The translations under genes were made by a program, and so were the position numbers. Source: Chitinispirillales bacterium (lineage in GTDB: Bacteria > Fibrobacterota > Chitinivibrionia > Chitinivibrionales > Chitinispirillaceae). From it: DNA of 44,546 bases. The stretch covers positions 1 to 44,546 of the forward strand of contig JAITFI010000083.1 of assembly GCA_031281485.1 (NCBI GenBank), written 5' to 3'. Each line of letters begins with the position of its first letter. Positions within the stretch are counted from its first letter, which is position 1. Under the pieces are notes generated by a model. That model did not search any database. It saw only the letters and a list, made by a program, of their open reading frames with translations, and was not told where the DNA came from. This document shows positions 29,555 to 36,084 of the stretch, one piece after another.

Positions 29555-30157
29555 CTACTGCGTAATATAATTTGTAAACATCACGCTCCGTATCTCACCC
29601 ATACCTTTCGGCAACGACGCGTTTACCATACGCCGCAAATCCTTGCATATCTTGTCACGTTCCGACGGGTCGGTAATCTCCCTAAGCGAGAGGCTCGACA
29701 TGTGCTTTATCAACATATCCTTGTATTTTGTGAATGCCCTTTTTCGCAGCTCGGCGCCCAGCTTATCGTTCTTTTCGTCGTACTCAAATATAACCGTCGC
29801 TTTGAGAAAACGATCCTCCGCCCCCGATATGTTCACAATGAACTCTATCGGTGTGTCTTCGGTGGTGACCCCTACCTTCGTCGCGGCCTGAGAGGCCAGC
29901 CTAAGCGAGTCTTCCTTCGCCTTTTGCGCGATCTCGTCCTCGTTAGCCGGCGGCTTGGGCACGAGCAAATATGTGACCGGGACGTAGATAATAAATAACA
30001 ACGACAGTATTATAAAAATTACAATGATAGTCTTTCTCCTTCCCACAATAAATCTTTTTCCTATTTTAGATGTTTTTACCACTACTGCACATCCACATAT
30101 TGTGCAAACAACAGCCTCGTCAACCAATTCAGTCCCACAACGTGTACAATATTTCAT
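29555..30157 (-). CDS. Zinc-ribbon / TM / FliL-like domain membrane protein
   Basis: This 200-aa protein begins with a zinc ribbon (MKYCTRCGTELVDEAVVCTICGC). It then has a Lys/Arg-rich stretch and one membrane helix (about 43-65, IIVIFIILSLLFIIYVPV). The C-terminal about 100 residues show the FliL pattern: NISGAEDRFLKATVIFEYD, LGAELRKRAFTKYKDMLIKHMSSLSLREITDP, KDLRRMVNASLP and, at the very end, SVMFTNYITQ, which matches the typical FliL ending. FliL supports flagellar stators, but no flagellar gene is in the window. GGAGG precedes the ATG. It may be co-transcribed with the gene at 30200. Confidence 0.75.
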   Translation of the reverse strand: MKYCTRCGTELVDEAVVCTICGCAVVVKTSKIGKRFIVGRRKTIIVIFIILSLLFIIYVPVTYLLVPKPPANEDEIAQKAKEDSLRLASQAATKVGVTTEDTPIEFIVNISGAEDRFLKATVIFEYDEKNDKLGAELRKRAFTKYKDMLIKHMSSLSLREITDPSERDKICKDLRRMVNASLPKGMGEIRSVMFTNYITQ

Positions 30158-30793: not shown

Positions 30794-31287
30794 TTTGATT
30801 TCTCATCATAATAACTGTTATAGGATCAGTTGCATCAACCATTTCCGCCATTGTATCCAAAATTATTGCGTAGCGCAGTAAGAACATCTTTTGAATAAGC
30901 ACCGCTACCACTCTTTTGGCTTGCACAGCAAGCGGCGCGGCAAGAATCAAAGTGCACACGATATATACTACTGTAGTAGTAGGATACAGAGTCTTAAGTG
31001 AGGCGACGTAAACCCTTGATTTACAACTAGTTACAACACTCGAAAAAAGTGGGGGGGGGGGGCATAGCGAAACCGCGCCGCTGTCATGCCGGTCGCGTGA
31101 GCGGTCGGGTCGGTCGTAGATGTCGGAACGGTCAAGGTCATAAATCCCCCGTAAAGGTCAAGGTCTGAACCGTCCCCCCCTGTCTCCGAGAGCGCGGTCG
31201 GTCGCGGTTCGTTGCGGACGGTTAATATTAATATAACATATAAGCGGGGTAGAGGAGTCAAAAAAATTAAAAAATATTTGACTTTTT
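30794..31287. other. 494-nt gap without a clear gene, holding a 12-G run
   Basis: Nothing convincing is coded here. A run of 12 G (31051-31062) is preceded by AAAAAAGT. Around it are CGGTC-rich words such as GGTCGGGTCGGTCG. The decamer GGTCAAGGTC occurs twice (about 31131-31140 and 31156-31165). The region is AT-rich at both ends. It lies between two minus-strand genes: the end of the ParA-M23 gene is downstream at 31288, and the 30200 gene is on the other side. Confidence 0.5.
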
Positions 31288-33204
31288 TTATTGCAGTATC
31301 GGCACCGAAGCCGGTGACGACAGTTGCTGCGACGGTGAGAGTTGCGGTTCATCGTCTGACCACCCCCCGTCTGTTATGCCACCTCCGAAGGCCATTTTGT
31401 AGAATAGGTATTTGGGGTCGGTTACCCTGTAATTTTTGCTCGCGAAGTTTATGTCGTGGCGCGACAGGCTCATTATGCCGTACATAACGTGCACGTGCGG
31501 GCCGCTCGTCCTTCCGGTCATCCCTATCGTCCCTATGGGCATGCCTTTTTTGACGGCGTCGCCCTCTTTCACAAAGCGGTTTTCCAAGTGCGAGAAGGAT
31601 ATCACCTCGTTGCCGAACATTACGGCCACCGTCCTGCCGCCGGCGGGTTCCGTTTTAAGCGCTGCTATGCCGTCGACGGGGCTGAGCACATCGCTGCCGT
31701 AAGCGGCGGCCACATCTATGGCGTAGTGCGGCTGCCCTCCGCCGGTTCCGCGCTCGCACCAGTCGCCGGTCACGTAGGGATAGGGGTCGTTGATCATGTC
31801 CATGAAGAATTTGTATGCCGGCGCGAGCGCTTTCTCCTGTTTATTCGTTATGGACATGGGCGGGTAGAACGTGAGCTTGGCGCCCTCCGGGATTCTGCTG
31901 TAGTCTACGATTTTAGGTTCGCCAATGGCGCGCGTCATGTTGTAGGCGTCTATTGTTTCGGTCAGGTACTGCGAGATCTCCTTCTGTGACGGCACCACGG
32001 CCCTGAATACGCTTATGGCGTACTTTGCCATGCGGGTCGCGTTGTCGCCCTTGCCGAAAGTGTGGACGAAGGTGGCGGCGCCGGCGCGTTCAACGATCTG
32101 CTGCGGCGCGACGGGGCGCGGCGCGGCGGCGTCGGGGATCGCGGGGTTGAGGGCGACTATAGCGGCCAGCGCCACGGCGGCGGCGGCTTTGAACGCGAAT
32201 ACCACCTTAGCCTCCAGCGCCGACGCGGAGATGTTTTCCCTATGTATCCCGTTGAGCACCTGTTGGACGTTTCGTGCCAGCAGGTCAAACGCCTTGGCGG
32301 CAGCGGGGTCGCCGCCGTGTTCGTGAACGCTCTTTCCGGCATCCTGCGCGTCCCTAATGGCCGCGGACTCCGGTATCTCCAAGTCAAACATGATAGACTG
32401 CGGCAGAAGGGCCATCCCGCTGTCATTGTGCACGGCGACCTGCTCGCAGAGCGAGTTGAGGAAGCTGCGGTTCAGGTTTATGGTACGCGCCTTACCGTCG
32501 GTGCGCTCGTCGCCGCCGCGGCCCACCTCGTTTTTCACTATGCGCAGACGCACGTGCGAGTTGTGCGAGATCAGGCTCTTGATGTGGGTAAGGTACTCCT
32601 TGAAGCTGTTGGTTGAGAGAGCGTCGAGCGTGACCGGGATAAGATTCAGGTCGCTGTTGACGTATAGGAACCGAGTCAGCCTATTCCAGACGGAGGGGGT
32701 GTCTACCACTATATACTTGTAGCGCTGTTTGACTATGCCCAAGTTGTGCAAAAAATTGCCGTACTGGTAGCCCGCCGGCGAGTTGAAGAGGCCGGAACCG
32801 GCCGGAACCACGTGCAGCATAGGCGTCGCGCGCGCGATGGCGTCTTCCACCGCCCCGCCGCCGAGTACTTTGCTGATAACCCTATCCTCCAGTTTGGAAA
32901 GGAAGCCGACTATATCGAACGATTCTAAGTACGCGGACAGGGGCGCGCCCTCTTCGAACCGGCGTTTGAAGAGGTCCCACGAGGTGTATTTGGGGGCGGC
33001 ATCCGAGCCTATGCCGAGGGCGATGCCGGCGCTGCCCTGCATGTCCAAATCTATGAGCAGGGTGGGCCCGTGCGAACTCAGGGTGGCCGCGAGATTTGAG
33101 GCGAGGGTAGATTTGCCGACGCCGCCCTTGATGTTGGCGACGTGGACAATACCGCCCCTGCCGGCATCCCAAAAGCCCGAAGGAGTCTCTAACTCTTGTG
33201 CCAT
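31288..33204 (-). CDS. ParA/MinD-like ATPase fused through a TM segment to a LysM-like region and M23 peptidase
   Basis: The ATG at 33204 has a GGGGTGGG ribosome site and gives 638 aa. Residues about 15-310 are a ParA/MinD ATPase with Walker A VANIKGGVGKSTLASNLAA, DLDMQGSAG and IVVDTPSVWN. A hydrophobic Ala-rich helix lies at about 333-352 (FAFKAAAAVALAAIVAL). Next comes a LysM-like stretch with a long insert (about 380-455, FVHTFGKGDNATRMAKYA to IPEGAKLTFYP). The M23 domain (about 485-610) keeps both zinc motifs: HYAID (about 492) and GPHVHVMYG (about 570). The predicted layout is ATPase inside, peptidase in the periplasm. I know of no characterised protein with this architecture. A pseudo-receiver gene precedes it by 19 nt. 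Confidence 0.9.
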   Translation of the reverse strand: MAQELETPSGFWDAGRGGIVHVANIKGGVGKSTLASNLAATLSSHGPTLLIDLDMQGSAGIALGIGSDAAPKYTSWDLFKRRFEEGAPLSAYLESFDIVGFLSKLEDRVISKVLGGGAVEDAIARATPMLHVVPAGSGLFNSPAGYQYGNFLHNLGIVKQRYKYIVVDTPSVWNRLTRFLYVNSDLNLIPVTLDALSTNSFKEYLTHIKSLISHNSHVRLRIVKNEVGRGGDERTDGKARTINLNRSFLNSLCEQVAVHNDSGMALLPQSIMFDLEIPESAAIRDAQDAGKSVHEHGGDPAAAKAFDLLARNVQQVLNGIHRENISASALEAKVVFAFKAAAAVALAAIVALNPAIPDAAAPRPVAPQQIVERAGAATFVHTFGKGDNATRMAKYAISVFRAVVPSQKEISQYLTETIDAYNMTRAIGEPKIVDYSRIPEGAKLTFYPPMSITNKQEKALAPAYKFFMDMINDPYPYVTGDWCERGTGGGQPHYAIDVAAAYGSDVLSPVDGIAALKTEPAGGRTVAVMFGNEVISFSHLENRFVKEGDAVKKGMPIGTIGMTGRTSGPHVHVMYGIMSLSRHDINFASKNYRVTDPKYLFYKMAFGGGITDGGWSDDEPQLSPSQQLSSPASVPILQ

Positions 33205-33223: not shown

Positions 33224-33571
33224 TTAGGTTGCGTCAACTGCCGCTTCTACGTCGGACGGAGCCGCCAAAACGCGGTCGCCCTCGTGGGGATGCCTCCCGG
33301 CAATGCCGGGCGTGTACTTTTCGTCAACATTGTAGAATACCGCCGGCACGGACGCGAGCCGTGAACCGGCGCCGAAATACTCGTATATGCAACGCCCCTT
33401 CTTCCATGTATCGGCGTTGATGTAGACCTCCTCGAAATCCGGCGCGCACAGCGCGTTCATGAAATCGTTCGACGACACGCAGACCGCGGCGTTGAGCTTT
33501 TTCTTGGAAAGCGCCTCTTTGATAGGCGCCGCGCGGTGGCGGCCGTCGTCCAAAACAAGAACCTTCTTCAT
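33224..33571 (-). CDS. Stand-alone degenerate receiver (pseudo-receiver) protein
   Basis: This 115-aa protein is the size of a response-regulator receiver and has its strand-helix rhythm: KKVLVLDDGRHRAAPIKEAL, then EEVYINADTWKKG, then VPAVFYNVDEKYTPG. The first acidic pair (DD, residues 8-9) is kept. At the usual phospho-acceptor place it reads Asn (VYIN), and the conserved Thr/Ser and Lys are not seen. It therefore probably signals without phosphorylation. GAAAGGG precedes the ATG by 7 nt. It is followed after 19 nt by the ParA-M23 gene, a separated version of the receiver-ATPase pairing seen in TadZ/CpaE. Confidence 0.75.
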   Translation of the reverse strand: MKKVLVLDDGRHRAAPIKEALSKKKLNAAVCVSSNDFMNALCAPDFEEVYINADTWKKGRCIYEYFGAGSRLASVPAVFYNVDEKYTPGIAGRHPHEGDRVLAAPSDVEAAVDAT

Positions 33572-33714: not shown

Positions 33715-34383
33715 CTATTTTCCGGCATTGACCGATGCCAGCAGATTCTCGGCTTTCTGGTGGTATTGCGTGGCCAGCGTGTCGGCGATCAGATCCTTGC
33801 AGTAGCGGCTTGCCGCGTTTGCGTTATCTTTATTCAGAAGCGCCAACTTCCACCGTATGGCGGAGCGGCGGTGGGCGGCGGCCTTGTCGCGCAACGCCCT
33901 TTCGAGACACCTGATCGCAGCCGCATTGTCGCCCTTCTCCTCGTAGGCGGCGGCGAGGCCCTCCAGCGCCTGACCCTTGACGAACCCGCTCTCCGCGCCG
34001 CCCACGGCCGTTTCGAACCACGTTATCGCTTGATCTATATTGTTCTGCTGCAAGTAGATACTTCCGGCCATGAACGCGCTCATAGTGCCTTGGGGCGTAC
34101 CCTTGTATTTGCCCGCCGCCTGAGTGAACGACTCAAGCGCCCTATCGAATTGGTCGGCGTTGTAGTCTAAGATTCCTACGCCGAACAGCTCCTGCGCCTT
34201 CCGGATCTGCGACTCACGCAAGCCGTTGTAAACGAGGATACCGCCCACCGCGACCACTACGGCGACAAGAAAAACCGCCATCAGACTGCCGTTTTTGGAC
34301 ATAAAAGCCCTAAGCCTCACCACACCATCGACGAGCGGGTCCGCCCCCTCGGGTATACCGCCCCTTTTTTGATTGATATCCAA
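33715..34383 (-). CDS. Membrane-anchored TPR protein (YfgM-like topology)
   Basis: A TTG start at 34383 (222 aa) is preferred because GGGAGGG lies 8 nt upstream; longer frames run into leader DNA with no ribosome site. A cytoplasmic N-tail (DINQKRGGIPEGADPLVDGV) precedes one helix (about residues 36-54, LMAVFLVAVVVAVGGILVY). Then come TPR units: LFGVGILDYNADQFDRALES, SIYLQQNNIDQAITWFETAV, GLAAAYEEKGDNAAAIRCLE. The topology and size resemble YfgM, an ancillary translocon factor, but the sequence link is not established. It is divergent from the phosphatase gene at 34540, with 156 nt between. Confidence 0.8.
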   Translation of the reverse strand: MDINQKRGGIPEGADPLVDGVVRLRAFMSKNGSLMAVFLVAVVVAVGGILVYNGLRESQIRKAQELFGVGILDYNADQFDRALESFTQAAGKYKGTPQGTMSAFMAGSIYLQQNNIDQAITWFETAVGGAESGFVKGQALEGLAAAYEEKGDNAAAIRCLERALRDKAAAHRRSAIRWKLALLNKDNANAASRYCKDLIADTLATQYHQKAENLLASVNAGK

Positions 34384-34539
34384 AGCCAAAACCCTCCCAA
34401 ACAGACTGTTTTTGAGTAATTTCACGCCAGTGTGAAAAATATCCGCAAAAAGCATTGCGCAACCCTCTGCGAATAGAATATATTAAATAAAATACTAAAT
34501 GGCGCAGGTAAAAATCAAGCAAATAATACGGATATTATT

Positions 34540-36084
34540 ATGGACGAAAAAACAAACGACTCGGTGCCGCAACTTCACGATCAGGATTTGATCTCGCAAA
34601 ACGAGATGCTCAAGTCTCAGCTCATCAACTCCGCGCTGTTAAATGAGCTTGTGAAGGTGCTGCACTCCTGTACAGACATAGACGGGATAGTGAAGACCGT
34701 GCTCCTATCCTTTCAAGACCTCGTTGACTTCGACCGCGCCATACGCTTCACGATAAACACCGACGAGTTCCGCCTTGAACCGACGAATTGGGTGGGTGTG
34801 GACGACGAGACCGCCAAAAAACTCTTGATACCGCTCGGCTTCGACGGCGGGGATATCACCGACGCTATCTTTCTCAACAAACACATCTTCGTGGACGAAC
34901 CCGACCCGACCTGCGACATATTCAGCCGCGAGATGCAATCACGCTCCTATATAGTGGCGCCGCTTTTGAGGAAGCCTACCCGCAAATGCTACGAAATCAA
35001 TGATTGCAATAATAAGTCGTGCCGGTGCTACGGCAGCGTCAACCCTTACTGTTGGAGCGCCTCGCACATCTGCGGGGACAAACCGAATGTCTCCGAAGAC
35101 GATAAACGCCGCGACTGCGTCACATGCCCGGCTTTCAGCGCAAAGGGGGTATTCTGGCTCGACCGCAAAAACAACGGAACGCCCATAACCAGCGACGACA
35201 TCACCTTCCTCACAAACATCATAACGATCGCCGGGCTCGTCTTCGACAACTTCAACATGATGAACGCGCTCGACGAGGCGAACCACGGCCTCAAGAACGC
35301 CAATGAAAAACTGCTCAAGGCCAACTACGAACTGGAGATAGCCCAATCTAACATCCGCATTGACCTCGAACACGCCCGCTCCATCCAGCAAAAACTCCTG
35401 CCGCAGGACATAATGACCTTCGCCAAGCACTACGACATCGGAGCACGCTACCTTGCGGCAAACTCAGTGGGCGGCGACTACTACGACCTATTCAACATCT
35501 CGGACGATACTTACGGCATAATCGTCGCCGACGTCTCCGGGCACGGCGTGGCCTCCGCGCTCATCATGTCCATGTTCAAGGTCCTCCTGAAAATCTACTC
35601 GCGAAAAGAGACATCGCCGCAAAAAACACTGGAGCAGATAAACGAAATATTCATCTCCGAAGTAGCCACCGAGCACTTCGTCACCGTCTTCTACGCGGTC
35701 ATAAACATAAAGACGCAAAAGATACGCTACTCGTCGGCCGGACACTGCCCCATCCTCTACATACACAAACCGACCGGCGACTTCGTTATGCTTAAAACCG
35801 ACGGCCTCTTCGTGGGCGTCTTCCCCGACATGCTAATGAATGAGAAAGAGGCGGACTACACGTGCGGGGAGTACCGGATGGTACTCTACACCGACGGCCT
35901 GACGGAGGCGGTCAACACGAAATCCGAGATGTACGGAACGGAACGCCTGCAGAACATAGCGACGCAAACGCTGACCCTAAACCCCAGCGACGCCGTCCAA
36001 GCCATTCTTGAACATCAAAAAAAGTTCTGCGGAACACAACAACAAGAAGACGATATGACGTTGTTGGTTATTGATTTTAAATAA
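34540..36084 (+). CDS. GAF domain / SpoIIE-type PP2C phosphatase
   Basis: This 514-aa soluble signalling protein likely dephosphorylates a serine on an anti-sigma antagonist or similar partner. Residues about 35-250 form a GAF domain containing a Cys-rich insert (KCYEINDCNNKSCRCYG, PYCWSASHIC, CVTCPAF), the so-called two-CW pattern. A coiled coil follows (about 250-285, NEKLLKANYELEIAQSN). The SpoIIE domain (about 295-514) keeps metal-binding motifs: SVGGDYYDLF, VADVSGHGVASALIMSMFK, YTDGLTEAV and QQEDDMTLLVIDF, so it should be active. No target gene is next to it. The ribosome site is weak (GGATA). Confidence 0.92.
   Translation: MDEKTNDSVPQLHDQDLISQNEMLKSQLINSALLNELVKVLHSCTDIDGIVKTVLLSFQDLVDFDRAIRFTINTDEFRLEPTNWVGVDDETAKKLLIPLGFDGGDITDAIFLNKHIFVDEPDPTCDIFSREMQSRSYIVAPLLRKPTRKCYEINDCNNKSCRCYGSVNPYCWSASHICGDKPNVSEDDKRRDCVTCPAFSAKGVFWLDRKNNGTPITSDDITFLTNIITIAGLVFDNFNMMNALDEANHGLKNANEKLLKANYELEIAQSNIRIDLEHARSIQQKLLPQDIMTFAKHYDIGARYLAANSVGGDYYDLFNISDDTYGIIVADVSGHGVASALIMSMFKVLLKIYSRKETSPQKTLEQINEIFISEVATEHFVTVFYAVINIKTQKIRYSSAGHCPILYIHKPTGDFVMLKTDGLFVGVFPDMLMNEKEADYTCGEYRMVLYTDGLTEAVNTKSEMYGTERLQNIATQTLTLNPSDAVQAILEHQKKFCGTQQQEDDMTLLVIDFK

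Follow-up and report, generated by a model that had tools for sequence, protein, structure and literature searches.

A close described counterpart to the protein considered here, in which a ParA-type ATPase, a transmembrane (TM) helix, a LysM-like module and an M23 peptidase follow one another in a single chain, is LmdC of Hyphomonas and Rhodospirillum, a bitopic M23 endopeptidase whose cytoplasmic tail mediates its recruitment by bactofilin (PMC10945521). Like the fusion, for which this topology is predicted, LmdC has a cytoplasmic N-terminus, one helix and a periplasmic M23 domain with intact zinc ligands, and its cytoplasmic part decides the site of the enzyme, a role for which the fusion would have a counterpart. 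However, the cytoplasmic tail of LmdC is a short beta-hairpin (about 38 aa in H. neptunium) and its periplasmic part contains coiled coils, whereas the fusion has a 300-aa ATPase and a LysM-like module; further, the bactofilin partner of LmdC is a separate protein encoded next door, whereas no bactofilin gene adjoins the fusion gene (bactofilin is encoded on other contigs, next to another M23 gene). The ParA/MinD/Soj proteins, in which ATP binding dimerises the domains, share with the fusion the fold, the deviant Walker A, the second Asp motif, the Walker B and the C-terminal ParA signature region, but the fusion adds a membrane helix and a wall enzyme and is without the canonical DNA-contact arginines. 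In the CpaE/TadZ proteins of the Tad pilus, a membrane-associated ATPase resembling ParA cooperates with a receiver-like domain (PMC13170226). There, the receiver and the ATPase form one chain bound by an amphipathic helix, whereas the receiver encoded next to the fusion is a separate ORF and the ATPase of the fusion is joined to a TM helix and a peptidase. FtsEX-EnvC resembles the fusion in that a cytoplasmic ATPase is linked across the membrane to a protein of LytM/M23 fold that acts on wall cleavage; however, its ATPase is of the ABC type and its subunits are separate, whereas the fusion is a single chain. The LytM domain of EnvC serves to activate amidases and has no hydrolase activity of its own. 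Lastly, the M23 DD-endopeptidases of the MepM/ShyA type have the M23 catalytic core in common with the fusion but are without an ATPase domain, and the order of TM helix, LysM-like module and M23 domain in the fusion is similar to that of MepM.

The window, i.e. the whole stretch of DNA that was analysed, comprises positions 1-44,546 (44,546 nt) of contig JAITFI010000083.1 of Chitinispirillales bacterium GCA_031281485.1. The fusion ORF begins with an ATG at 33204 and ends with a stop codon at 31288-31290 on the minus strand (coding part 31291-33204). The gene and its parts are as follows:

31288..33204, minus strand: fusion gene for ParA ATPase, TM helix, LysM-like module and M23 peptidase, 638 aa (Pfam and 27 co-linear proteins)
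32245..33156, minus strand: ParA/Soj-type ATPase domain, residues 17-320, predicted cytoplasmic (Pfam AAA_31, Foldseek)
33106..33129, minus strand: deviant Walker A KGGVGKST, residues 26-33, with the signature Lys26 and Lys31, invariant in 27/27
32149..32205, minus strand: predicted membrane helix, residues 334-352 (hydropathy, AlphaFold2 model, charge comparison)
31855..32070, minus strand: LysM-like beta-alpha-alpha-beta module, residues 379-450, predicted periplasmic (AlphaFold2 fold; weak Pfam LysM matches in 4/48 relatives)
31486..31731, minus strand: M23 peptidase core, residues 492-573, with H493, D497, H539, H570 and H572 (Pfam; 53/53 sequences)

A run of about 10 G is present in the intergenic region downstream of the gene (window about 31050-31062), with more C and T runs nearby.

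When 61 related genomes were searched by tblastn, the same architecture was found in an open frame, co-linear over the full length, in 27 genomes inclusive of that of the window. The relatives are 37-91% identical and their full-length alignment contains 91 invariant columns. Comparisons with congeners gave dN/dS values of 0.08-0.20 for the ParA domain, 0.10-0.13 for the LysM-like module, 0.05-0.11 for the M23 domain and 0.19-0.47 for the linker and TM segment. Due to the open frame in 27 genomes and these low values, the join is seen to be maintained as one reading frame, and the fusion is real and conserved, with its parts under purifying selection. The genome of the window is a draft in 107 contigs with 68% completeness, and such fragmentation could suggest that two genes were joined by an assembly error or a missed frameshift. 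However, as the frame is open in 27 genomes, several of them from unrelated assemblies, and purifying selection extends across the join, this explanation has next to no probability and was ruled out. Fusion-bearing assemblies recovered in a GTDB pattern scan, whose reach is limited to close relatives, include termite-gut Chitinispirillales, Fibrobacteria GUT77 and fen, digester and other MAGs. A tblastn search of plasmids with the fusion as query gave stand-alone ParA matches only, none covering 80% of the query.

The ATPase domain of the window protein matches AAA_31/ParA in Pfam (residues 19-214, E 1.3e-18), and in Foldseek the first half of the modelled protein matches Soj/ParA, McdA, MinD and FlhG (best 8e-13, prob 1.00), with a TM-score (target) of 0.76 against Soj/ParA, i.e. 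a ParA fold. Both signature lysines (K26, K31), the aspartates of the second Asp motif and the Walker B Asp (D52, D54 and D168) are invariant in all 27 full-length proteins, and therefore ATP use is likely to be under selection in the ATPase-bearing group. At the other end, Pfam Peptidase_M23 matches residues 492-573 (E 8.7e-15), with the motifs HYAID at 493-497 and HVH at 570-572. The five residues of the HxxxD...H...HxH set are retained in all 53 sequences of all types, and the C-terminal part matches ShyA, EnpA and the LytM domain of DipM (Foldseek, prob 1.00), i.e. a LytM fold. Based on these sequence features, the M23 domain is complete and is predicted to be a peptidoglycan endopeptidase.

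Between the two enzymes, residues 334-352 form the global hydropathy maximum of the window protein (mean Kyte-Doolittle 2.46), and residues 329-352 are modelled by AlphaFold2 as one helix. A hydrophobic segment is present at the same place in 27/27 full-length and 24/24 shorter, Fibrobacter-type proteins (described below), and it is the global maximum in 26/27 and 24/24 of them, respectively. The mean net charge on the ParA side versus the M23 side is 1.37 vs 0.00 in the full-length proteins and 3.38 vs 0.12 in the Fibrobacter type. Because one helix is present in 27/27 and the ParA side is on average more positive, the N-terminus is predicted to lie inside, with ParA cytoplasmic and M23 periplasmic, although the bias is modest in the ATPase-bearing group, where the positive charge is greater on the N-terminal side in 15 and equal in 8 of the 27 proteins. 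The AlphaFold2 model, based on 26 family members, has a mean pLDDT of 74 and a pTM of 0.48; such scores indicate confidently modelled separate domains of uncertain relative placement, as would be expected if the membrane splits the protein. For residues 379-446, the model gives the beta-alpha-alpha-beta order of a LysM fold (E379-382, H389-401, H407-424, E443-446; pLDDT mostly >80), and one relative (L098) reads VHVFNEGESLTQIARFAIGKYNSLVSTEAMVKEYLKNNGLSLESKIKAGDTLRLKLP in this part, which by eye is near the LysM core. However, no Pfam LysM match is found in the window protein, nor among the 26 full-length members that were aligned; only 4 of 48 isolated homologous segments are matched, weakly (best E 0.0021), and a profile search of this part against PDB sequences gave no meaningful match. 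The identity as LysM, and with it a putative role in wall binding, is plausible.

The earlier note on this DNA had described four parts in a single protein, viz. an intact KGGVGKST motif in the N-terminal third, a membrane-spanning hydrophobic helix at about 333-352, a LysM-like stretch and both zinc motifs of an M23 enzyme. The intact 638-aa ORF, the frameshift-free recurrence of the fusion in other genomes, and the ParA and M23/LytM folds given by AlphaFold2 and Foldseek for the whole protein all agree with that description, and the predicted span of the helix is nearly the same; for the LysM-like stretch, the fold is supported by the model whereas a Pfam match is lacking in the window protein. 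Neither of the two outcomes that the note had named as refuting its reading was observed: no frameshift occurs in the 27 genomes, and by hydropathy the helix is retained in every one of the 27 proteins.

The family extends well beyond these 27 genomes. In a profile search of 168 Fibrobacterota genomes, 152 contain a family match at E up to 1e-15, and 131 contain a homologue of the membrane-LysM-M23 core, i.e. the 152 minus 21 genomes with only a weak M23-type match. The Fibrobacter-type members, mostly 410-515 aa long, have the same TM-LysM-M23 core but a different-looking N-terminus. When this N-terminus was compared with the ParA domain by hhalign, a probability of 96.9% (E 1.9e-10) was obtained, versus 0.5% or less for reversed, shuffled and unrelated control profiles, and the alpha/beta order in a model of a Fibrobacter-type protein agrees with a degraded ParA domain. 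As the best 50 Foldseek matches listed for this model are to M23 proteins only, the identification of the N-terminus as a degraded ParA domain is based on the hhalign result with its controls and on this alpha/beta order. Walker A and Walker B are lost in all 24 sampled Fibrobacter-type proteins, with K31 and D168 retained in none. In a tree based on the C-terminal half, these 24 proteins lie on one side of a single branch (support 100/99) and therefore one loss of the ATPase residues suffices to account for them; the tree is midpoint-rooted and the direction of the change rests on the argument that the active ParA motif set is ancestral. Since the wall enzyme is kept while all of the ATPase residues are lost, ATP turnover is not needed in this clade. 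In another family (f13, represented by L097 from an incomplete MAG), the ATPase domain is gone and only a short cytoplasmic tail is left, with a receiver-like ORF still directly upstream.

The following genes adjoin the fusion gene in the window:

33224..33571, minus strand: pseudo-receiver of 115 aa, a degenerate response-regulator receiver, upstream of the fusion ORF at a distance of 19 bases (Response_reg; alignment A2)
33715..34455, minus strand: TPR protein of 246 aa (TPR_21), an upstream member of this conserved cluster (Pfam, neighbourhood comparison)
34540..36084, plus strand: SpoIIE-type phosphatase, divergent neighbour of conserved position (Pfam, neighbourhood comparison)

The conserved order is SpoIIE phosphatase (divergent), TPR gene, a histidine kinase gene in some genomes, receiver-like gene and fusion. 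The kinase (GAF-HisKA-HATPase or short) is found between the TPR and receiver genes in L060 (5463-7178), L061 (4329-5981) and L057 (9214-9909); none is present there in the window. Response_reg matches 14 of the 23 receiver homologues. As the phosphoacceptor position is often Asn, Glu or Ala instead of Asp while a motif around W56 and Y65-F66 (W-K-G...YF) is conserved, this protein is, judging from alignment A2, probably a pseudo-receiver in most species. It is encoded directly upstream of the fusion or of the Fibrobacter form in 43/61 genomes, and a partnership with the fusion is likely but not exclusive: the receiver and TPR genes persist without the fusion in G002, G010 and G019, and together with the kinase gene in G034, G037 and G039. 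That receiver and fusion always occur together is rejected by these cases; since the receiver is retained where the fusion is missing, it also serves another role, and some lineages do without the fusion gene. In Fibrobacter-type genomes, the degraded-ATPase form is followed directly downstream by a family of small putative lipoproteins with no Pfam match (L045 8164-8598; also L047, L048 and L049). The window also encodes a FliL-domain protein (29555-30157, minus strand; PF03748, E 1.7e-12) that has a zinc-ribbon at its N-terminus as well as a TM helix, and beside which no recognised flagellar genes are seen in the examined part of the window.

No parB is found beside the fusion gene, whose neighbours are the TPR, kinase and receiver genes. 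In the relatives examined (G041, G004), a canonical parA-parB cluster lies apart from the fusion and holds the chromosomal ParA role; there, the genes that come after parA-parB are one for an M23 protein whose N-terminus has a membrane helix and one for bactofilin (L127 626-3551, L129 317-3727). This neighbourhood is a possible hint as to how ParA and M23 came together. MreB, bactofilin and FtsX (the latter in 58/61 genomes) are near-universal in the genomes compared and hence uninformative.

The architecture, the complete active sites, the conservation and the loss of the ATPase residues in a single clade are seen in the sequences, together with a predicted topology. From these we infer a mechanism, with dimerisation driven by ATP, binding of a partner, localisation, activity of the enzyme and its role in the cell, which we put forward tentatively and at somewhat below even chance: a bitopic wall endopeptidase that a cytoplasmic, ATP-dependent ParA dimer switch recruits to, or clusters at, a growth or shape-determining site. 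ATP binding would dimerise the ParA domains under the membrane, and the dimers would bring together or cluster the attached LysM-M23 domains in the periplasm. In the ATP-bound state, these domains would dock the LysM-M23 enzyme on a cytoplasmic landmark, with the product of the adjacent upstream gene, the pseudo-receiver, as the likeliest partner. The LysM-like module would anchor the enzyme to the wall, where its M23 domain would cleave stem-peptide cross-links and so serve local growth or the control of shape. A pseudo-ATPase scaffold would replace the ATP-dependent switch in Fibrobacter; as the ATPase is dead in that clade (24/24) and absent in one family, ATP-driven positioning is not needed everywhere. 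The wider reading, which we regard as possible with slightly greater reserve, is that of a transmembrane machine in one chain, inherited from an ancestor of most Fibrobacterota: the ParA/MinD cycle would directly dictate where or when the endopeptidase cuts, and the Fibrobacter form would work on a dead ATPase.

ATP dimerisation may instead act as an on/off switch, rearranging the outer LysM-M23 part and activating the enzyme in the way that FtsEX acts through EnvC, but within one chain. The short linkers around the single helix, the strict selection on the ATPase residues and the open and closed forms of M23 enzymes such as ShyA, to which the structure was matched, all fit such a switch. However, proteins with a dead or missing ATPase have kept the same M23 active site, and FtsX in 58 of the same 61 genomes already provides ATP-coupled control of hydrolases; we consider this explanation unlikely, if worth keeping in view. 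It is rather unlikely, too, that the ParA domain serves chiefly as a scaffold on which partners, for example the pseudo-receiver, dock, with nucleotide turnover secondary, as the catalytic ATPase residues are all invariant in the 27 full-length proteins. A docking contribution is nevertheless favoured due to the dead-ATPase clade, where the degraded domain identified by hhalign is retained on the membrane-LysM-M23 core and the pseudo-receiver still adjoins the gene.

A membrane-held ParA domain could also bind chromosomal DNA and couple wall cutting to chromosome position, since its nearest fold and sequence matches, Soj/ParA, bind DNA as ATP dimers. In C. crescentus ParA, however, R221 and R224 contact the DNA (PMC7229837). 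At this site the fusion reads IPES, and the canonical ParA of the fusion-bearing G041 keeps RNVKLSEAPSSGK. The equivalent of R221 is Glu279 in 26 of the 27 full-length proteins and that of R224 (position 282) is variable and without Arg or Lys, though DNA-contact residues of this kind differ among ParA relatives. This replacement would fit a membrane-based, MinD-like use better than nucleoid riding, and nucleoid binding is disfavoured as improbable. The earlier note had also considered appendage insertion. That the enzyme opens the wall for a flagellum or pilus would be in line with the placing of flagella by FlhG and of Tad pili by CpaE, both relatives of ParA/MinD. However, FlhA is present and the fusion absent in G010, G013, G029, G034 and G037 (96-100% complete), and conversely the fusion-family protein is present without FlhA in G031 (96% complete) and in Fibrobacter genomes. 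The gene does not co-occur with FlhA, which disfavours this role for flagella, and appendage insertion as a whole has a very low probability. What stands of the earlier reading is an intact, predicted-bitopic ParA-TM-M23 protein conserved across the phylum. Its proposal that the ATPase may place the wall enzyme is complicated by the loss of the ATPase residues in the Fibrobacter-type clade and by the lack of conservation of the nucleoid-binding residues of canonical ParA.

The earlier note knew of no described example of such a protein, and no description of a ParA-M23 fusion was found in the open-access journal literature searched. The fusion is apparently undescribed; its parts are of known families, and LmdC is a precedent for the control of a bitopic M23 enzyme from the cytoplasm. 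Of central interest, and still open, is how wall hydrolases are controlled by landmarks on the cytoplasmic side of the membrane. In known cases, one protein does the positioning and another the hydrolysis, whereas here a positioning-type ATPase is welded to a hydrolase, with both catalytic sets retained in one large group and the ATPase residues lost in another. There is a real chance that this represents a new type of transmembrane coupling, and the Chitinispirillales (live ATPase), Fibrobacter (dead ATPase) and the relatives without the gene provide a natural comparison. In the Fibrobacterota, where no MinC was found beyond sub-threshold or partial matches, the fusion is a candidate envelope-patterning factor.
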